In this document: piece by piece, positions 13,533 to 35,258 of the stretch
Numbering within the stretch: position 1 is the first letter of the stretch
Layout of the letters: each line of letters begins with the position of its first letter
Assembly: GCA_947448135.1 (NCBI GenBank)
Contig: CANFLZ010000021.1
Span: 1-35,724 of the forward strand
Direction of reading: 5' to 3'
DNA: 35,724 nt
From: Flavobacteriales bacterium
Lineage (GTDB): Bacteria > Bacteroidota > Bacteroidia > Flavobacteriales_D > Sanyastnellaceae
Notes under the pieces: generated by a model
Databases searched by the model: none
What the model saw: only the letters and a program-made list of their open reading frames with translations
What the model was told of the DNA's origin: nothing
Program-made: the position numbers and the translations under genes

Positions 13533-13647
13533 GAGCGAATAATTATTCGCTCTTTTTGATATTTGTTGGGGCGAATAATTATTCGCCCTTTTTTTAAGGC
13601 GAATGGTTATTCGCCAGTGGATTTTTTAAGGAGAATGGTTATACGCT
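13533..13647 (+). repeat. Cluster of REP-like palindromes upstream of the RAYT gene
   Basis: Two perfect 20-bp palindromes (GAGCGAATAATTATTCGCTC at 13533-13552 and GGGCGAATAATTATTCGCCC at 13569-13588) are each followed by a T run. A third, GGCGAATGGTTATTCGCC, lies at 13598-13615, and a decayed fourth copy at about 13630-13647. The core is identical to that of the tandem array after the transposase gene. The first two can also act as intrinsic terminators for the 13083 gene. Confidence 0.85.
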
Positions 13648-13737
13648 AGTAGTCAGTTTTTTTAGGGAGTAGAGATTCGAGAATATTCCTATAATTTATA
13701 GGTTTTTTATGCGGAAGACAAGAATCATTTTTGCGAG

Positions 13738-14286
13738 ATGATTCAGAAAGGAAAATTAAAGTATCGGAAATCTCGACGAATGAAAGGGTATGACTATACT
13801 TGGAGAGGTTTGTATTTTGTAACCATTTGTGCACATAGACGGCAACGGCATTGGGGCAAAGTGTTGGATGGGAAAATGCAATTGAGCGAATTCGGTCAGT
13901 CAGCCCATCAATGTTGGAAAGAGATTAATAAACATTTCCCACACGCAAGAGTTTTAGAATTTGTAGTCATGCCGGACCATGTTCATGGGTTGATCGAAAT
14001 TTACCGCTATGCATTTCCTGACAGAGTTCGGACTAGCTGGCCTCATTTTGCAAAATTTGAGTCCCCATCACGAACTATTGGTTCCATTGTTAGGGGATAC
14101 AAAATAGGCGTAGTCAAGGGAATGCGAGCTTCGGGTTTCGTTGGTGACGTTTGGTTGCGAGATTACGATTGCCGAATATTGTTCAATCTATCAGATCGTC
14201 ATCGAGTGATGGCCTATATTCGAAATAATCCCAGAAAATTTTGTCAGCGTAGCGGCCGAAATATTAGCCGCAGAGGAGCCGCATAG
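13738..14286 (+). CDS. REP-associated tyrosine transposase (RAYT, IS200-like Y1 family)
   Basis: A 182-residue protein with the Y1 transposase fold. WRGLYFVTICAHRRQRHWG is the first strand, VLEFVVMPDHVHGLIEI carries the metal-binding His-x-His, and a candidate catalytic Tyr is in WLRDYDCRILFN, followed by the family's AYIRNNPRKF. RAYTs cut single-stranded REP hairpins and are thought to spread them as non-autonomous elements. The gene lies inside a field of identical palindromes. Its stop codon touches the first palindrome at 14286, and the last 14 or so codons align at the nucleotide level with the downstream repeat unit, so the C-terminus seems to be made of repeat sequence. It looks intact. 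The segment DYDCRIL differs slightly from the usual YDRIIRN-like motif. Confidence 0.88.
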   Translation: MIQKGKLKYRKSRRMKGYDYTWRGLYFVTICAHRRQRHWGKVLDGKMQLSEFGQSAHQCWKEINKHFPHARVLEFVVMPDHVHGLIEIYRYAFPDRVRTSWPHFAKFESPSRTIGSIVRGYKIGVVKGMRASGFVGDVWLRDYDCRILFNLSDRHRVMAYIRNNPRKFCQRSGRNISRRGAA

Positions 14287-14766
14287 GGCGAATAATTATT
14301 CGCCCGTAGGTATAGCGTCGATTGTTCGTGAGATTTTCAGAGCAGCGGTAGAGAGATTATTCGCCCGCAGAGGAGACGCAGAGGGCGAATAATTATTCGC
14401 CCGTAGGGAAGAGCGTGGATTGGCCGTGAGATTTTCAGCGGAGCGGTAGAGAGATTATTCGCCCGCAGATTAGTCGCAGAGGTCGAATAATTATTCGCCC
14501 GTAGGGAAGAGCGTGGAATGTCCGTGAGATTTTCAGAGCAGCGGTAGAGAGATTATTCGCCCGCAGAGGAGACGCAGAGGGCGAATAATTATTCGCCCGT
14601 AGGGAAGAGCGTCGATTGTCCGTGAGATTTTCAGCGGAGCGGTAGAGAGATTATTCGCCCGCAGAGGAGACGCAGAGGGCGAATAATTATTCGTCCGTAG
14701 GTATAGCGTCGATTGTTCGTGAGATTTTCAGAGCAGCGGTAGAGAGATTATTCGCCCGTAGGGAGA
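14286..14766 (+). repeat. Five-copy tandem repeat (97-98 bp) with embedded REP-like palindrome
   Basis: Units start at 14286, 14383, 14481, 14579 and 14677, the last incomplete. Each opens with the palindrome GGGCGAATAATTATTCGCCC or a 1-nt variant, then GTAGG, a segment with GTGAGATTTTCAG, a GCGGTAGAGAG segment, a half palindrome ATTATTCGCCCG, and CAGAGGAGACGCAGA. Copies differ by a few bases (for example TCGAAT at 14483 and TTCGTCC near 14690), so the array is not brand new. No reading frame runs through it. It lies between the RAYT gene and the tracrRNA/cas9 region. Confidence 0.92.
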
Positions 14767-14865
14767 GTGATAAATTTCTATTATCAATGAAATTTATTTG
14801 TTGTTAAAAACAATTTAGATGAATAATTGATTCTGTTGTATATATTTGATATAGTTCTTTAAAGC

Positions 14866-14946
14866 AAAAAAAAGCGAGGATTGCTCCCCGCTTCAAATGT
14901 TTTCACAACGGTCATAGAGCTTATTGTGAATTGCTGTTAATTGAGA
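14866..14946 (-). ncRNA. tracrRNA of the type II-C CRISPR system
   Basis: On the minus strand, an anti-repeat at about 14924-14946 (TCTCAATTAACAGC, then AATTCACAA) equals the plus-strand repeat sequence apart from one missing A. It can therefore pair over 23 bp with a minus-strand crRNA, leaving one bulged base. It is followed by about 35 nt of linker and an intrinsic terminator: GCGGGGA, GCAA tetraloop, TCCTCGC, then eight T (about 14867-14892). The product would be about 80 nt, divergent from cas9. The opposite strand has no terminator after the anti-repeat, so the minus strand is favoured. Confidence 0.88.
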
Positions 14947-14972
14947 ACACGAATATAGAATAAATAATTTAG
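14941..14972 (+). promoter_or_regulatory. Candidate cas9 promoter
   Basis: TTG at 14941-14943 and TAATTTAG at 14965-14972 are 21 nt apart and match the Bacteroidota pattern with one mismatch. Transcription would start about 8 nt before the cas9 ATG. The TTG lies inside the tracrRNA anti-repeat. A perfect TATATTTG at 14841-14848 is an alternative but lacks a well-spaced TTG. Confidence 0.35.
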
Positions 14973-14985: not shown

Positions 14986-17900
14986 ATGAAAAAAGTTTTG
15001 GGATTGGATTTGGGTGTTGCTTCCATTGGTTGGGCTTACATCCAGGAAGACGAAAAGAAATCTGAGATTTTAGGAATGGGAGTACGCATTATTCCTTTGA
15101 ATTCCGAAGAGCGAGATGAGTTTACAGCAGGTAATGCCATTTCAAAAAATGCGAAGCGTCGAATTAAGCGGGGAATGCGACGAAATATTTATCGGCGCAC
15201 GTTACGAAAGACATTGCTTAAGCGGGCTTTGTCGGAAGTTGGGATTGAACCTGGAAAGGAATTATTTGAAGGATTTTCAAAAATGAATCTTTGGGAACTC
15301 AGATCCAAGGCCGCTCAAGAGCAAATTTCATTGGAGGAGTTGGGTAGAGTTCTATATCATCTCAATCAAAAGCGAGGATTTAAGTCCAATCGAAAAACTG
15401 ATGGAGCGGAAGAGGATCCCAAAAAGGAATCGGAATACAAAGCCGAAATTCGCAAGAATGCCCAAGATTTGATGGATGCTCATTTGACAATTGGTCAGTA
15501 TGTTTTTAAACAGCTTCAAGAAGATCCATATTTCAAACTAAAAGGTAGAATTTTTCCAAGGCAGGCTTATGCAGATGAATTCATGGCCATTTGGAATTGT
15601 CAATCAAAATTTTATCCAAGTGTGCTGACAGAACAATTGCGCAAGAGAGTTCAGGATGAAATAATTTTTCATCAGCGTCCATTGAAATCACAGAAAGCGC
15701 TGGTAAGTCGCTGTGAATTTGAAAAGAGATATGCATGGGTAAATGACAAGAAAATGGATGTGTCTCCGAGGGTCACTCCTAGAACTTCGCCTTTGGCTCA
15801 ATGGTCGAAAATTTATGAGGCAGTTCTCAATTTGCGATTCAAAGATGAAATGGGTGTTGTAGTTTCTGTCGATCTCCAGAAGGCATTAGCATTGGCTGAG
15901 GAATTGAAATGGAAAGAAAAAATGTCTGCCAATGATATTATTAAGTTTTTGGGTATTCCTAAAGGAGTTACACATAACATTGGGGAAAAAGGAATTCAAG
16001 GTGATACAACGTTTAGCACCATTGAAAAGGCTGTGAAAGGTATCAAGAAAGCGGATGATTTGTTGGGGCGAATAAAGAAAATTGAGTTTGATATAGAATT
16101 AAAGGACAACAAAGATTTGACGCTTGTAGATGAGGAAACGGGAGAGTTATTTCATTATCAATCAAAGACTATTTCATCACATTTTGAAAAGTCCGACTAT
16201 TATCGATTGTGGCATTTGTTATATTCTGTCGAAAATGAAGAAAGCCTTATAAAAAATCTGATCGAGGATTTTGAATGCACGGCTGAGATTGCCCAGAAGT
16301 TGGTGAAATTGGATTTTACCAAGGCTGGATTTAGCAACAGAAGTGCTGCTGCGATAAAAAAGACTTTGCCCTATCTCATGGATGGATTAGATTATTCTAA
16401 GGCAATGGCTTGCGCTGGATACAGACATTCTGATTATTTGGATAAAATGGAAAATGAGGCTCGGGTGCTTTTGGATAAAGTGCCATTGCTTCAGAAGAAT
16501 AGCTTACGTCAGCCTGTGGTGGAGAAGGTTTTGAATCAATTGATCAATGTGGTTAATGCGATCATTGAACATCCACAATATGGAAGACCTGACGAAATTA
16601 GAGTTGAATTGGCGCGTGAATTAAAGCAAAGCAAGGAAGAGCGGAACCGTACATCATCCAATATCACCAAACAAGAAAAGCGTAATAAGGATATAGAAGA
16701 TAGATTGCGCAGGGAATATGGATTTGTGAAAGTGACAAAGTCACTGATTAACAAGGTTAAAATTTATGAGGAGGTTGGAGGTATTTCTCCTTACACTGGA
16801 AAACGAATTGCTTTGGCCGATTTTCTCAATGGAGCTGGAGTTGATGTTGAACACATTATTCCCAAGTCGAGATTGTTCGATGATAGTTTGTCCAATAAGA
16901 CAATGTCTGAAGCGTGGGTAAATAAGGCCAAGGGCAACATGACTGCTATGGATTTTATGAAAGCACAGCCAATTGCAGGATTACAATCTTTTGAAGATTA
17001 CATAGCCATGGTCAATTTGTGGTTTAAATCTGGGGTAAATGGCGCGAAGATTTCAAAAACCAAGTATGACCGTCTACTATGTCCCGAAGAAAATATTCCA
17101 AAAGATTTTATTGAGAGACAGTTGCGTCAGACCCAATACATCTCAAAAAAGGCTTCTCAAGTATTGGGATTGGCTTGCCGCAATGTGCATGCAACCAGCG
17201 GAGGTGTTACTGACTTTTTGAGAGAAAAATGGGGATGGAATGACGTCCTTAAAAAAGTGAATTGGGAGCGTTATGAAAAACTTGGATTTACTTCAATAGA
17301 AAGGCGTGAGGATGGTAAGAGAATATACAATATCACAGGCTGGTCCAAACGTGATGATCATCGCCATCATGCCATTGATGCGCTCGTTGTAGCTTGCACC
17401 AAACAGAGTTACATACAATCTTTAAATAGATTGAATCAATTTGTCAATAAAACCAATACTGCAGATGGTTTAAAAGAAGCGGGTCATTTTAAATTAAAAG
17501 AAATCGCGGGCAAGGCGCCATTTGAAGTAGACGAAATAGTGGAGCGCGCATCTAAAATTATTGTATCATTTAAACCGGGAAAACGGGTTTCTTCGAAAAG
17601 TAGAAATAAGGCGACAGGACACACGAGTATCATTCCACGCGGTGCGTTATCCAAAGAGACGGTATACGGAAAGATAAAAGTGCAGACCAAACGGGAAGTT
17701 GCTTTGAATAAAAATTTTAATCCAGAGTGGCTGGTGGTAGATCGCTTTTTACGTGTGGTGATAAGAGAGCGAATCAAAGCATTTGATGGAGATTTAACCA
17801 AAGCATTTAAAGCGCCCATCTATTTGGCCGATGGCTTAACGCCTGTGAAGAAATTGGAGATTTACGAATGGAATGAAGAGGCGGTGGTGAAATATCCGTT

Positions 17901-18536
17901 GTCGTCCATCAAGCAAAAGGATCTGGAATATGTTGTTGATCCTTTGGTAAAGCAGAAGCTTCAGGCATTCTTTGATCGATATCCCAACGAGAAGGAGGCC
18001 ATTAAAAATTTGGGTACATCGCCTATTTGGTTCAATGAAGAAAAAAGAATTCCCATCAGAACGGTGCGCCTCATGACAGGGTTAGGTAAAGTGGTGCCGC
18101 AAAAGCAGGTTAGTCCAAGCGAGGCCAAAGGATTTGTTGACTCAGGCAACAATCATCATTTGGCGGTGTACGAAAGAGAGGATGGTTCTTTGTTTGACGT
18201 GATGGTCTCTTTCCAAGAAGCATTTGAGCGTAAGGCCAATGGATTGCCACTTTACTTTACAGAATGTGAAGGCGCAAAACTCAAATGGAAATTTGAGCAG
18301 AATGATTTGTTTGAGATTACCAATGCAGAGGGAAAAGTGATGTACTACAGGATGCAGAAAGTTACAAAATCAGCAACTGGTACCATAGATATTTTTTTAA
18401 GACTAATATCAGAAACGAATTTGGTAGATACAAAGGAAAACATACAAATGAATGTTTATTATCGAATTTCTTCAATTAGTGCATTAACCAAAATAAATCC
18501 TAGGACGGTCAAATTGAATTTATTGGGAGAACTTTT

Positions 18537-18540
<4 letters not shown>
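14986..18540 (+). CDS. cas9: Cas9, type II-C
   Basis: An 1184-residue RNA-guided DNA endonuclease. RuvC-I has D8 in GLDLGVASIGWA. An Arg-rich bridge helix spans about 56-80 (NAKRRIKRGMRRNIYRRTLRK is its core region). RuvC-II has E541 in IRVELARE. The HNH domain lies around 605-650 with E622-H623 in VDVEHIIPKS and N637 in DDSLSNKT. RuvC-III has H794-H795 and D798 in HRHHAIDALVV. The remaining C-terminal 380 residues would be the wedge and PAM-interacting region. All nuclease residues are present, with Glu in place of the usual Asp before the HNH His. The gene overlaps cas1 by 4 bp (ATGA). The absence of csn2 and cas4 and the cas9-cas1-cas2 order define subtype II-C. The PAM cannot be read from this sequence. 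Confidence 0.97.
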
Positions 18541-19776
<1,236 letters not shown>

Positions 19777-19780
19777 AATA

Positions 19781-19813
19781 AAAAAGGAAAACCGAAAGGT
19801 TTTCCTTTTTTGG
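19781..19813. terminator. Two-way intrinsic terminator between cas2 and the array
   Basis: A 13-bp stem (AAAAAGGAAAACC / GGTTTTCCTTTTT) with a GAAA tetraloop has A and T runs on both sides, so it works in either direction. It would end the cas9-cas1-cas2 mRNA from the left and minus-strand array transcripts from the right. Confidence 0.9.
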
Positions 19814-19890
19814 ATATTCGAAATTTGTGTTTTTTTAATCGCGAAAAATCGATGTAACACCCTTAAAACGTGCATTTTAGATCACATTTG

Positions 19891-22544
19891 GTTGTTTCGA
19901 ATATTTCAAAGATCTCAATTAAACAGCAATTCACAACGTCAATTAGAATAGCGTTACAAGGGGATGAGTTGTTTCGAATATTTCAAAGATCTCAATTAAA
20001 CAGCAATTCACAACTAGTTTGGGCAAATATATTACTGAAATGCAGTTGTTTCGAATATTTCAAAGATCTCAATTAAACAGCAATTCACAACACGAAGTAC
20101 ACGCAAGTAATATGAGCAAGTGTTGTTTCGAATATTTCAAAGATCTCAATTAAACAGCAATTCACAACTTATGTTTTAAGTTCAAGAAGAAAGCCCCTGT
20201 TGTTTCGAATATTTCAAAGATCTCAATTAAACAGCAATTCACAACTGTCTTCGTTTATGTCGATTTGCTGGCGGTGTTGTTTCGAATATTTCAAAGATCT
20301 CAATTAAACAGCAATTCACAACCTGGATAGCACGTTGCTATTTTCCCAAAGCGTTGTTTCGAATATTTCAAAGATCTCAATTAAACAGCAATTCACAACT
20401 GCCTATTACAATAGCAGTCGTTCTATCTTGTTGTTTCGAATATTTCAAAGATCTCAATTAAACAGCAATTCACAACTAATTGATATTAACAATCTTATAA
20501 CTCTAAGTTGTTTCGAATATTTCAAAGATCTCAATTAAACAGCAATTCACAACTCATCCAAACGAATCAATGTTCTTTTTTGGTTGTTTCGAATATTTCA
20601 AAGATCTCAATTAAACAGCAATTCACAACGGTAACTCATGGGTGCTCTCATGCTTTCGGGTTGTTTCGAATATTTCAAAGATCTCAATTAAACAGCAATT
20701 CACAACATGGAACACTAACATTTAAAGTCGGAACTTGTTGTTTCGAATATTTCAAAGATCTCAATTAAACAGCAATTCACAACTGTGGCTCTAAAAGAGG
20801 AGGAGTTTGCGTCGTTGTTTCGAATATTTCAAAGATCTCAATTAAACAGCAATTCACAACTGCTGGTAGCTCAACTTATAGTTTGATACAGTTGTTTCGA
20901 ATATTTCAAAGATCTCAATTAAACAGCAATTCACAACCAGTAGTGAAATCAGCAGTTACAATGTTTTGTTGTTTCGAATATTTCAAAGATCTCAATTAAA
21001 CAGCAATTCACAACTGCCATCTCTTTGCTTGTGAAAAAGATATGGTTGTTTCGAATATTTCAAAGATCTCAATTAAACAGCAATTCACAACTGTCTTGGC
21101 TTGCTACGTTATCATATAAACGTTGTTTCGAATATTTCAAAGATCTCAATTAAACAGCAATTCACAACAATACCGCTTGTTGGTTTACATTTAAACTCGT
21201 TGTTTCGAATATTTCAAAGATCTCAATTAAACAGCAATTCACAACTATTGTCTTTCATGCTTATCTTTGTCTTAGTTGTTTCGAATATTTCAAAGATCTC
21301 AATTAAACAGCAATTCACAACAATCCAACTACCAACTTGGGAAGAAATAAAGTTGTTTCGAATATTTCAAAGATCTCAATTAAACAGCAATTCACAACGC
21401 ATGTACCCTGGTATGTTTGAAAATTTCGGTTGTTTCGAATATTTCAAAGATCTCAATTAAACAGCAATTCACAACCAGTGTCTGTTGAGCCAATCGCCCA
21501 AAATTGTTGTTTCGAATATTTCAAAGATCTCAATTAAACAGCAATTCACAACTCAGTGAGAGTGATAGCATATCGCTTCACGGTTGTTTCGAATATTTCA
21601 AAGATCTCAATTAAACAGCAATTCACAACTATTGATGCGATACGTGCAATACCAGCAGCGTTGTTTCGAATATTTCAAAGATCTCAATTAAACAGCAATT
21701 CACAACTGAAAAGATAGTTCTTTAAATCGTGGTTTTGTTGTTTCGAATATTTCAAAGATCTCAATTAAACAGCAATTCACAACATTAAATAGTTGTTGTC
21801 CTCAACTACAACGGTTGTTTCGAATATTTCAAAGATCTCAATTAAACAGCAATTCACAACTGATAACGCCAATGCTGGAGTGTCATTCGTGTTGTTTCGA
21901 ATATTTCAAAGATCTCAATTAAACAGCAATTCACAACGGCGCGGTGGTTGTTACGTTGCCCAATGGTGTTGTTTCGAATATTTCAAAGATCTCAATTAAA
22001 CAGCAATTCACAACTATCCGGGTCAGTAGCAAAACCAAAAAGACGTTGTTTCGAATATTTCAAAGATCTCAATTAAACAGCAATTCACAACTGTTGATAT
22101 CAACTGCATTAAATGGTGTAGTTGTTTCGAATATTTCAAAGATCTCAATTAAACAGCAATTCACAACTTTAGGATTTTAATCCATTCCTTCTGCTCCGTT
22201 GTTTCGAATATTTCAAAGATCTCAATTAAACAGCAATTCACAACTTTCAATTGCTTTAACAATTGCGTTAACTTGTTGTTTCGAATATTTCAAAGATCTC
22301 AATTAAACAGCAATTCACAACTGGTGTCTTTAAGTTCAACGAATTCAACTGGTTGTTTCGAATATTTCAAAGATCTCAATTAAACAGCAATTCACAACGT
22401 TGTGGGAACTCCACCACCACCGCCCGACGTTGTTTCGAATATTTCAAAGATCTCAATTAAACAGCAATTCACAACATGGAAATTAGTAAAATGAAGTTTT
22501 TGGATGTTGTTTCGAATATTTCAAAGATCTCAATTAAACAGCAA
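19891..22544 (-). CRISPR. CRISPR array, 35 repeats and 34 spacers (type II-C)
   Basis: Repeats begin GTTGTTTCGAATATTTC and end AAACAGCAATTCACAAC on the plus strand; 34 are 47 bp and appear identical, and the last (22506-22544) keeps only its first 39 bp. Spacers are 30 bp, except three of 29 bp (20554-20582, 21246-21274, 22092-22120), giving a 77-bp period. All spacers appear different from one another. The first and last bases of the repeat form a short inverted pair (GTTGT / ACAAC). The tracrRNA anti-repeat fits the minus-strand transcript, so I assign the array to the minus strand. Targets cannot be identified without a search. Confidence 0.99.
22445..22474 (-). promoter_or_regulatory. Promoter inside the CRISPR repeat (one of 34 equal copies)
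   Basis: In repeat 22429-22475 read on the minus strand, TTG (22474-22472) and GATCTTTG (22452-22445) are 19 nt apart, one base from the Bacteroidota consensus. The tRNA promoter at 35229-35258 has the same spacing. Transcription would start about 8 nt before the repeat end, giving short-leadered single crRNAs. All 34 full repeats carry it. In the truncated repeat at 22506-22544 the TTG is lost. Confidence 0.65.
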
Positions 22545-22692
22545 ACACCTCTGCCGGAGTATTAGACAATTTCGTCCACGGATTTTCTCCTTTCCTCGGA
22601 TTGTTGATGACATAAATGACAAAAGCAATGAATGCGAGAACAATTAAAATCAAGATGACTCTCACAATATTGATTGCACTTTTCTCTGTCAT
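22534..22692 (-). CDS. Small single-pass membrane protein ending inside the CRISPR array
   Basis: A 52-residue protein starting MTEKSAINIVRVILILIV, with one hydrophobic helix (about residues 6-29) and a polar C-terminus NNPRKGENPWTKLSNTPAE. The function is unknown. An in-frame ATG at 22743, 4 bp after the accC stop, would give 69 residues and cannot be excluded. The last codons (about FAV) and the TAA stop are read from the truncated terminal repeat of the array, so the original C-terminus has probably been replaced. It follows accC on the same strand and is likely co-transcribed with it. Confidence 0.6.
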   Translation of the reverse strand: MTEKSAINIVRVILILIVLAFIAFVIYVINNPRKGENPWTKLSNTPAEVFAV

Positions 22693-22747
22693 TCTTGTTT
22701 GATTTTGGTATTCTTTTTCTGGGCTTATCCCCACTTTCAACATCCCC

Positions 22748-24220
22748 TCAATACCTCCTCTTCCAACTATCCCCGCTCTTTTTCATGGCGTTGTGCATGA
22801 CTTGCTTTTGCTGCCTGTGGATCTTGGTGGCCAAAGCGGCTGCTATGATGGCTTCTTCTTCGGTGCGTTGATGCAAGACTTCTGGTGTGTAGTAATTTTT
22901 GACAAAATGGGTGTCAAAGTCGCCACTGACAAAGGCTTCGTGATTGATGGCCCATGAACAGAAGGGGAGTGTCGTTTGCACACCTGTCACTTGATAGTCG
23001 GCAATGGCGCGGGTCATCTTGGCAATGGCGGCATTTCGATCGGCTGCATGCACAATCAACTTGGCAATCATGGGGTCATAGTAAATCGGAATGTCCATGC
23101 CTTCTTCAAATCCATCGTCCACTCGAACCCCAGGTCCCATGGGGCGCTCATAGGTAATCAACTTTCCGATGTCGGGCAAGAAGTTGTTCAACGGATCTTC
23201 TGCATACACGCGTATCTCCAATGCATGGCCATTGATCTTTAAATCGTCTTGACCAAAACTTAATTGCTCTCCGCGGGCTACTTTAATCTGCTCTTTCACC
23301 AAATCAATGCCGGTGATCATCTCGGTGACGGGATGCTCTACCTGCAAGCGGGTATTCATCTCTAAGAAATAATAATTGCGATTTTCATCCACCAAAAACT
23401 CTACTGTTCCGGCACCAACATATTGACAACTCTTGGCTACATCAACTGCACTGGCTCCCATGGCGGCACGCAACTCGGGCGTCAATACTGCACTGGGGGC
23501 TTCTTCTACAACTTTCTGATGTCGACGTTGAATGGAGCACTCTCGCTCAAACAAGTGAACCACATTCCCATGTTTGTCTGCCAATACCTGAATCTCAACG
23601 TGTCTTGGTCCTGCTACATATCGCTCAATGAAAACCGACCCGTCTCCAAATGCACTGATGGCCTCGGAGATGGCGCGCTCCATCTGTTCTTCTAATTCTT
23701 CAATTTTTTCTACAATGCGCATCCCTTTTCCACCGCCACCAGCTGAGGCTTTGATCAAAATGGGAAGGCCTACTTCCAATGCAACTCGCTTGGCTTCCGC
23801 AACATCGGATACTGCATCTTCTGTTCCGGGTACCATCGGGATGTTGTATTTCTTGGCGGCATTCTTGGCTGCCAATTTCGATCCCATGACCTCGATACTT
23901 TCGGGGTTGGGACCAATGAATGTAATTCCCGCGGCTTGCACCTTGCGAGCGAAGTCTGCATTTTCTGACAGAAATCCATATCCGGGATGAATGCCGTCAA
24001 CGCCTATTCTTTGACACAAGGCAATGATGTCATCTCCTTTCAAATAAGATTGATTCGAAGGCGCTGGTCCAATGCGATAGGCTTCGTCAGCATATCGAAC
24101 AAATGGTGCGTTGGCATCTGCATCACTATAAATGGCTACAGTTTTAATTCCCATTTCTTTTGCAGATCGCATGATGCGAAGTGCAATTTCTCCTCGGTTG
24201 GCAATCAATATTTTTTGCAT
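22748..24220 (-). CDS. accC: Biotin carboxylase subunit of acetyl-/propionyl-CoA carboxylase
   Basis: A 490-residue ATP-grasp enzyme that carboxylates biotin on its carrier protein using ATP and bicarbonate. The N-terminal domain opens MQKILIANRGEIALRIMRSA. The ATP-binding loop is AGGGGKGMRIV at about 160-170, with K157 before it. ERECSIQRRHQKVVEEAPS and FLEMNTRLQVEHPVTE (E287, N289, R291) form the active site. The length is slightly above E. coli AccC (449) because of a C-terminal tail rich in Ala, Lys and Gln. No carboxyltransferase or biotin carrier gene is adjacent, so acetyl-CoA and propionyl-CoA carboxylase cannot be separated. Confidence 0.94.
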   Translation of the reverse strand: MQKILIANRGEIALRIMRSAKEMGIKTVAIYSDADANAPFVRYADEAYRIGPAPSNQSYLKGDDIIALCQRIGVDGIHPGYGFLSENADFARKVQAAGITFIGPNPESIEVMGSKLAAKNAAKKYNIPMVPGTEDAVSDVAEAKRVALEVGLPILIKASAGGGGKGMRIVEKIEELEEQMERAISEAISAFGDGSVFIERYVAGPRHVEIQVLADKHGNVVHLFERECSIQRRHQKVVEEAPSAVLTPELRAAMGASAVDVAKSCQYVGAGTVEFLVDENRNYYFLEMNTRLQVEHPVTEMITGIDLVKEQIKVARGEQLSFGQDDLKINGHALEIRVYAEDPLNNFLPDIGKLITYERPMGPGVRVDDGFEEGMDIPIYYDPMIAKLIVHAADRNAAIAKMTRAIADYQVTGVQTTLPFCSWAINHEAFVSGDFDTHFVKNYYTPEVLHQRTEEEAIIAAALATKIHRQQKQVMHNAMKKSGDSWKRRY

Positions 24221-35228: not shown

Positions 35229-35258
35229 TTGCGCAAATAGAAATTGAGTGTATTTTTG
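35229..35258 (+). promoter_or_regulatory. Promoter of the tRNA genes
   Basis: TTG at 35229-35231, 19 nt, then a perfect TATTTTTG at 35251-35258, matching the Bacteroidota consensus in sequence and spacing. The start would be near 35265, about 17 nt before tRNA-Gly. Confidence 0.75.

Follow-up and report, generated by a model that had tools for sequence, protein, structure and literature searches.

Does each repeat of a Bacteroidota type II-C CRISPR array carry the promoter for the spacer that follows it, and from which strand are the guides made? We addressed this for an array in a 35,724-nt stretch of DNA (the window) from a Flavobacteriales bacterium. Repeat-embedded promoters are already known from II-C systems, where they have been measured in Campylobacter and Neisseria. 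The repeat of Campylobacter jejuni closes with an extended -10 box, GGTAAAAT, and the first transcribed base is the fifth of the spacer (PMC3656092); for Neisseria meningitidis, citing papers treat the II-C repeat promoters as established. Among Bacteroidota, a repeat promoter has been proposed for Flavobacterium columnare (PMC8092290) and F. psychrophilum (PMC10309648) from a TTG located 33 or 35 bp before each spacer, and these papers describe transcription toward the leader, based on eight reads from the F. columnare array and on RNA-seq reads from the F. psychrophilum array. The first-pass annotation of the window read a minus-strand promoter of the Bacteroidota sigma type into every repeat. 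The observation behind this proposal is confirmed by our analysis, and its interpretation is partly supported. Judging from sequence comparisons, the crRNAs of this II-C locus come from the minus strand, and we consider it likely that they are produced by -7 promoters within the repeats and that the tracrRNA has a promoter of its own.

The locus and its repeat

The genes cas9, cas1 and cas2 are consecutive, the array comes after cas2, the tracrRNA is encoded upstream of cas9, and neither csn2 nor cas4 was found among the six open reading frames searched for protein families (Table 1). The locus is therefore assigned to type II-C, its Cas9 matching the general family TIGR01865. A carboxylase gene, a gene for a cytochrome-like protein and a REP-transposase-like gene are the neighbours. 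The latter, a REP-associated tyrosine-transposase-like gene at 13738-14286, scored 38 bits, below the family cut-off of 80. It is flanked by the palindrome GGCGAATAATTATTCGCC, and downstream of the gene come about five 98-bp tandem copies that contain the palindrome; allowing one mismatch, the genome has 10 such sites, six of them at 13570-14766 of the window.

Table 1. Features of the CRISPR-Cas locus in the window
Feature	Position	Strand	Remarks
tracrRNA terminator-like hairpin and T-run	14866..14893	-	
tracrRNA anti-repeat	14924..14946	-	pairing with crRNA repeat bases 2-25
-7 box TATATTCG (5/6), predicted tracrRNA promoter	14950..14957	-	3 nt before anti-repeat; TTG 18 nt upstream
cas9 (1184 aa)	14986..18540	+	TIGR01865, 511 bits
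cas1	18537..19466	+	TIGR03639, 286 bits
cas2	19393..19776	+	longest ORF; family match from residue 27; TIGR01573, 70 bits
Terminator-like hairpin and T-run between leader and cas2	19780..19805	-	faces the array's transcription
AT-rich leader, presumed spacer-insertion side	19813..19890		from array polarity
CRISPR array, 34 full 47-bp repeats and one truncated	19891..22544	- (crRNA strand)	strand from tracrRNA
-7 box GATCTTTG, leader-proximal repeat	19907..19914	-	same offset in all 34 full repeats
TTG, possible -33 element, leader-proximal repeat	19934..19936	-	same offset in all 34 full repeats
Truncated terminal repeat, transcribed first	22506..22544	-	box kept; TTG and first 8 bases lost

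The array consists of 34 identical repeats, the last full copy starting at 22429, and 34 spacers of 29-30 nt; a 35th copy matches the repeat over its first 39 bases. In the reverse complement of the repeat, GTTGTGAATTGCTGTTTAATTGAGATCTTTGAAATATTCGAAACAAC, TTG occupies bases 2-4 and GATCTTTG bases 24-31, with 19 nt in between. This arrangement, on which the first-pass annotation had built its case, is present in each full repeat, and the tRNA promoter to which it had been likened, TTG-N19-TATTTTTG at 35229-35258, exists as described. Thirty tRNA loci of the organism itself were examined, and 8 of them have a perfect TTG-N19-TAnnTTTG within 160 nt upstream, which makes N19 a plausible spacing here. 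Promoters of the Bacteroidota primary sigma factor carry TAnnTTTG at -12 to -5, and in B. fragilis a TTTG near -33 (PMC9723704, PMC7366714). Compared with these, the element considered here is copied with every repeat, and the window's box is a 5/6 match, its first base being G where the consensus has T.

For a single repeat this resemblance is only modestly above chance. TTG-N19 followed by a box of at least 5/6 is expected 0.008 times per repeat-sized stretch, given the background outside the array, and appears in 0.9% of fully shuffled window repeats; when the shuffles keep GTTG, 7.5% have a box of at least 5/6 at N17-21. It is important to note that the 34 copies are not independent.

The -7 box in repeats across Bacteroidota

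Repeats from other genomes were also compared. A first contig scan with the window's Cas9 as the lone query gave no match. The search for Cas9 covered 395 phylum genomes, with matches in 67, 150 order genomes, with matches in 24, and 395 class genomes, where there were 139 matches, 93 of them above the cut-off; these genome sets overlap and include the window's genome. Set 1 made use of many but not all of the hits, namely those of 60/66 other phylum genomes and 21/23 order genomes as well as 58 class regions. Of 141 sources scanned, including the window, 42 had no detected array and were dropped; the remaining 99 arrays comprise 64 with long repeats (44-47 nt) and 35 with short ones (36-37 nt). 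A second collection of 80 loci (set 2), freed of 4 duplicates and of 23 loci lacking an array, contributed 50 long repeats (45-50 nt). The anti-repeat gave the orientation of 81/99 set-1 arrays, and in the other 18 the 5' motif overruled the anti-repeat match, so that the array was flipped; all set-2 arrays were oriented by the 5' motif. Cluster representatives share <80% identity, and the long repeats of set 1 yielded 31 of them.

A TAnnTTTG box of at least 5/6 lies at N17-22 from the TTG in 52/64 long repeats of set 1 (perfect in 20) and in 40/50 of set 2 (perfect in 23), i.e. in 92/114 long arrays, with N18 (28) and N19 (37) as the prevailing spacings. The 12/64 and 10/50 remaining long repeats lack such a box. 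Dissimilar repeats show it as well: 23 of the 31 set-1 long representatives have the box, compared with 4.5 expected, a maximum of 12 in 2000 shuffles and 2 on the other strand, and among those set-2 repeats that resemble neither set 1 nor one another it is found in 8/11 (1.5 expected). Perfect boxes anywhere in the repeat are practically confined to the crRNA strand (22 vs 0 in set 1, 25 vs 1 in set 2), mostly at repeat bases 23-26. Boxes of 5/6 on the other strand occur in 17/64 and 21/50 long repeats, for which shuffles of the crRNA sense give 9.3 and 6.2; among dissimilar repeats their number falls to 2/31 and 3/11.

Among the short repeats of set 1 the box is present in 11/35 and absent in 24/35, with 7/15 representatives positive (1.4 expected); in set 2 all three short repeats have it. 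Several loci (L066, L068, L092, L097 and similar ones) share 36-nt repeats of the form GTTGTGGTTTGATTAAAG...GATATT that are devoid of a -7 box. Where short arrays lack the box, external promoters in front of them show no clear enrichment (4/19 vs 2.2 expected).

An unrestricted search placed matches of at least 5/6 at bases 23-24 in long representatives (18/35 matches) and at bases 22-24 in short ones (6/9), from which it follows that the box keeps its distance to the 5' end of the repeat and not to the 3' integration end. When 23 representatives were anchored on the box, the box positions contained 0.9-2.0 bits and the bases just after it 0.0-0.2 bits, although selecting and anchoring on the box inflates its own values. 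The two middle bases favour TC, a preference that promoter function alone does not explain. Mutations within arrays revealed no difference between the box and later bases, but with 16/1360 inner copies changed and 19 distinct variants this comparison has no power.

Thus, the conservation across the phylum that the first-pass annotation had proposed to look for does exist for the -7 box at N17-22, while the window's own copy is a 5/6 match. The TTG belongs to a GTTGTG start common to repeats with and without a box, is not kept in terminal repeats and by itself proves nothing.

Three loci deserve separate mention. All named set-2 loci are Bacteroidota by title except L309, whose contig is titled Candidatus Fibrimonadaceae; its 45-nt repeat has TAAATTTA at N19. 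In L179 (G616:C28), a Bacteroidota-assigned genome bin contains a repeat GTTGTAGCTCCC...GGCTACAAT, which we take to be Neisseria-like and which possibly reflects contamination or transfer. In L164 (G436:C2:2056507-2059772), which is from the window's own family, the Cas9 matches are split among several open reading frames, of which one contains a TGA in frame, and adjoin a 43-copy array.

A predicted tracrRNA promoter and the ends of the array

A box of the same type is associated with the tracrRNA. Within 0-7 nt of the anti-repeat, a -7 box of at least 5/6 was found in 50/55 long-repeat loci (9.7 in shuffles) and in 33/45 set-2 loci (6.7 in shuffles); in the long-repeat loci a TTG stands at N18-20 from it 29 times, where about 5 are expected. 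Short-repeat loci are not enriched (4/19 vs 2.6 shuffled). The window itself has TTG-N18-TATATTCG. As the box would sit at -12 to -5 (PMC9723704), the tracrRNA would start at the first anti-repeat bases. When a weight matrix derived only from the tracrRNA boxes was applied to the repeats, its maximum fell on base 23 or 24 in 19/31 representatives. Measured on this matrix, the window's repeat box is a weak variant: it scores 5.0 against a median of 9.1, and G at its first base occurs in 0/50 tracrRNA boxes. The same GATCTTTG nevertheless serves as the box in nine set-1 arrays, the window included, and in one set-2 array. On the plus strand upstream of cas9, TATATTTG at 14841-14848 could be a -7 box of cas9, with no TTG at N14-25; if so, the cas9 mRNA would overlap the tracrRNA in antisense.

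When the entire repeat is used as the query, the stretch matched by the anti-repeat stops at or before base 28 in 53/58 loci and passes base 31 in 5, so that pairing with the tracrRNA leaves most of the conserved TTTG unexplained. A permissive gapped alignment of repeat and anti-repeat gives matches of 0.96-1.00 at bases 2-18 and of 0.5-0.8 past base 24.

The ends of the arrays were inspected as well. The more degenerate end coincides with the crRNA 5' end in 45/74 arrays and with the other end in none, the two being equal in 29. In the window, too, the crRNA strand runs toward the leader, the degenerate repeat is at its 5' end, and the repeat at 19891 is directed into the leader, toward the hairpin listed in Table 1. 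This hairpin has an A-run at its opposite side and may serve both directions. Terminator-like hairpins on the crRNA strand are found at the leader side in 24/64 arrays (2.5 expected) and in 23/50 of set 2 (0.9 expected); 16 and 11 of these are confined to the crRNA strand, compared with 2 and 2 hairpins confined to the cas strand.

A truncated or changed terminal copy is present in 30/48 long arrays of set 1 and in 23/39 of set 2, and none in 18/48 and 16/39. Where a box-bearing array has a truncated terminal repeat, the break mostly precedes the box and leaves it whole (22/24 and 17/19). By a strict count the breakpoint lies past the start of the box in 3/30 and 2/23 arrays; the probability of 6e-5 for uniform breakpoints assumed 2/30. 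Since the oldest repeat is part of no crRNA with a real spacer, a promoter role would be the obvious reason for keeping it. However, box-poor terminal repeats retain their 3' half in 9/10 cases as well, so the retention is not box-specific; we count it as support and reject it as decisive evidence. We also rejected a replaced TTG as support for the -33 element: among 24 terminal repeats whose box is intact but whose TTG is gone, 4 have a TTG at N17-21, compared with 3.1 expected. A previous study of extra repeats in II-C arrays noted that the oldest repeat is mutated mostly in its first 15 nt and remarked that its preservation as a promoter may be necessary (PMC12080349). In the present analysis, the breakpoint is set against a defined -7 box, and leader-side terminators are counted.

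Proposed expression of the guides and competing explanations

Taken together, these data suggest that, in the window's organism and in many related bacteria, each guide can probably be turned on by the repeat that precedes its spacer. RNA polymerase with the Bacteroidota primary sigma factor would start inside each repeat at the mid-repeat -7 box and move away from the oldest, degenerate repeat in the direction of the leader; the transcripts would cover a single unit or several before ending at the leader terminator. The tracrRNA, started from its own -7 box, would pair with repeat bases 2-25 and thereby lead to an RNase III cut. Some details of the first-pass annotation have to be amended. 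It expected initiation about 8 nt before each spacer, as in Neisseria and Campylobacter; with a -7 box at -12 to -5, the predicted start in a 47-nt repeat is base 36, which leaves 12 nt to the spacer, and the Campylobacter start is within the spacer (PMC3656092). Of the 34 spacers that it took to be expressible singly, 33 follow a full copy, and the oldest lies behind the truncated repeat that lacks the TTG; expression free of processing is not supported, as the transcripts would run on and need 3' processing, and the 12-nt repeat tag at the 5' end would have to be trimmed.

An obvious competitor is a single precursor that enters from outside, either by read-through of the minus-strand genes upstream or from a promoter overlooked near 22550-22750, with the box having no promoter role. 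We regard this as unlikely, yet it is the most serious of the alternatives. The carboxylase gene (22748-24220, minus strand) points into the array from about 200 nt away and could read into it, the minus strand between 22450 and 22900 yielded one weak terminator-like signal, which is at the truncated repeat, and the window's box is off-consensus. A 2016 report on Riemerella, which relied on a generic promoter predictor, found none in the repeats (PMC5006608); the repeat of a Riemerella anatipestifer array in our survey (L267), however, has a perfect TATCTTTG at N20. The single outside start envisaged as a counter-scenario also finds little in the flanking DNA: with a TTG at N17-21, the best box in the 200 nt upstream of the window's array reaches 4/6, and a 6/6 promoter within 200 nt upstream occurs in 0/45 arrays with 0.6 expected, which is neither an enrichment nor a depletion. 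Furthermore, an outside precursor leaves both the conserved box and its likeness to the tracrRNA box unexplained.

The TATCTTTG stretch might also have another reason to persist, whether as an integration motif of Cas1-Cas2, in an RNA fold, in pairing with the tracrRNA or simply through common descent, but we find this quite improbable. The TC bias of the middle bases would fit such a role, and so would the anti-repeat matches that pass base 31 in the few loci noted above, and a downstream copy of box bases 1-4 in inverted orientation, present in 14/52 arrays (5.4 in shuffles, at most 12). Among dissimilar representatives the inverted copy drops to 3/23 against 1.8 in shuffles, and we discarded it as an integration motif; in addition, TTTG is equally conserved although it lies outside the inverted-copy stem. 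Descent alone is at odds with the lack of conservation right after the box, integration with a box position that follows the 5' end, and pairing with the point at which most anti-repeat matches end. Least of all do we expect crRNAs from the plus strand, for which no support was found and which would be very surprising. The best plus-strand box is 4/6. As the window's anti-repeat is followed by a hairpin and T-run on the minus strand, the crRNAs come from that strand; the tracrRNA upstream of cas9 thus bears out the strand assignment of the first-pass annotation. The crRNA strand is opposite to cas9 in 59/60 long-repeat loci and in 52/53 of set 2, the latter oriented by the 5' motif only.

Initiation within the repeats therefore remains our preferred explanation, and it can be placed among the systems described so far. 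With C. jejuni and N. meningitidis the window shares cas9-cas1-cas2, a tracrRNA and, as predicted here, crRNAs from promoters in the upstream repeat. Unlike the C. jejuni repeat, it has its box, of the TAnnTTTG type, around bases 23-31 and a predicted start inside the repeat; its 3' end in the crRNA sense, GAAACAAC, contains no extended -10 box. The Flavobacterium II-C systems agree in phylum, in the idea of a repeat-encoded promoter and in transcription toward the leader (PMC8092290, PMC10309648), but the F. columnare repeats are 36 nt long and the available text names no -7 element in them (PMC8092290), and for F. psychrophilum TAnnTTTG was assigned to the cas9 promoter (PMC10309648). In Clostridium cellulolyticum the array is likewise opposite to the cas genes and a promoter element is suspected in the repeat; there, the last nine bases of the repeat resemble an extended -10, and expression was in E. 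coli (PMC7038990). What appears to be new is the -7 box in repeats across the phylum together with its tracrRNA counterpart; among the matches listed in our literature search, for which subscription papers were mostly outside the scope, we recognised no description of either in Bacteroidota.

We tentatively go further and propose, with the chances leaning slightly against us, that Bacteroidota II-C systems possess a matched pair of promoters. A long repeat (44-50 nt) would combine a tracrRNA-pairing half with a -7 box, and the box of the tracrRNA would be placed for a start at the anti-repeat. The repeat would then be long because the start lies inside it, which entails a 12-nt 5' crRNA tag absent in Campylobacter. 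Read-through would grow with each upstream repeat, so that the spacers acquired last, next to the leader terminator, might be transcribed most, a corollary we hold just as tentatively.

The tracrRNA starts predicted for 50/55 and 33/45 loci should be of use in designing guide RNAs for Cas9 proteins of Bacteroidota. If the repeats are indeed promoters, exact positions for mutation would be at hand, and the host sigma factor would set part of the repeat sequence, which could limit the transfer of arrays between phyla.
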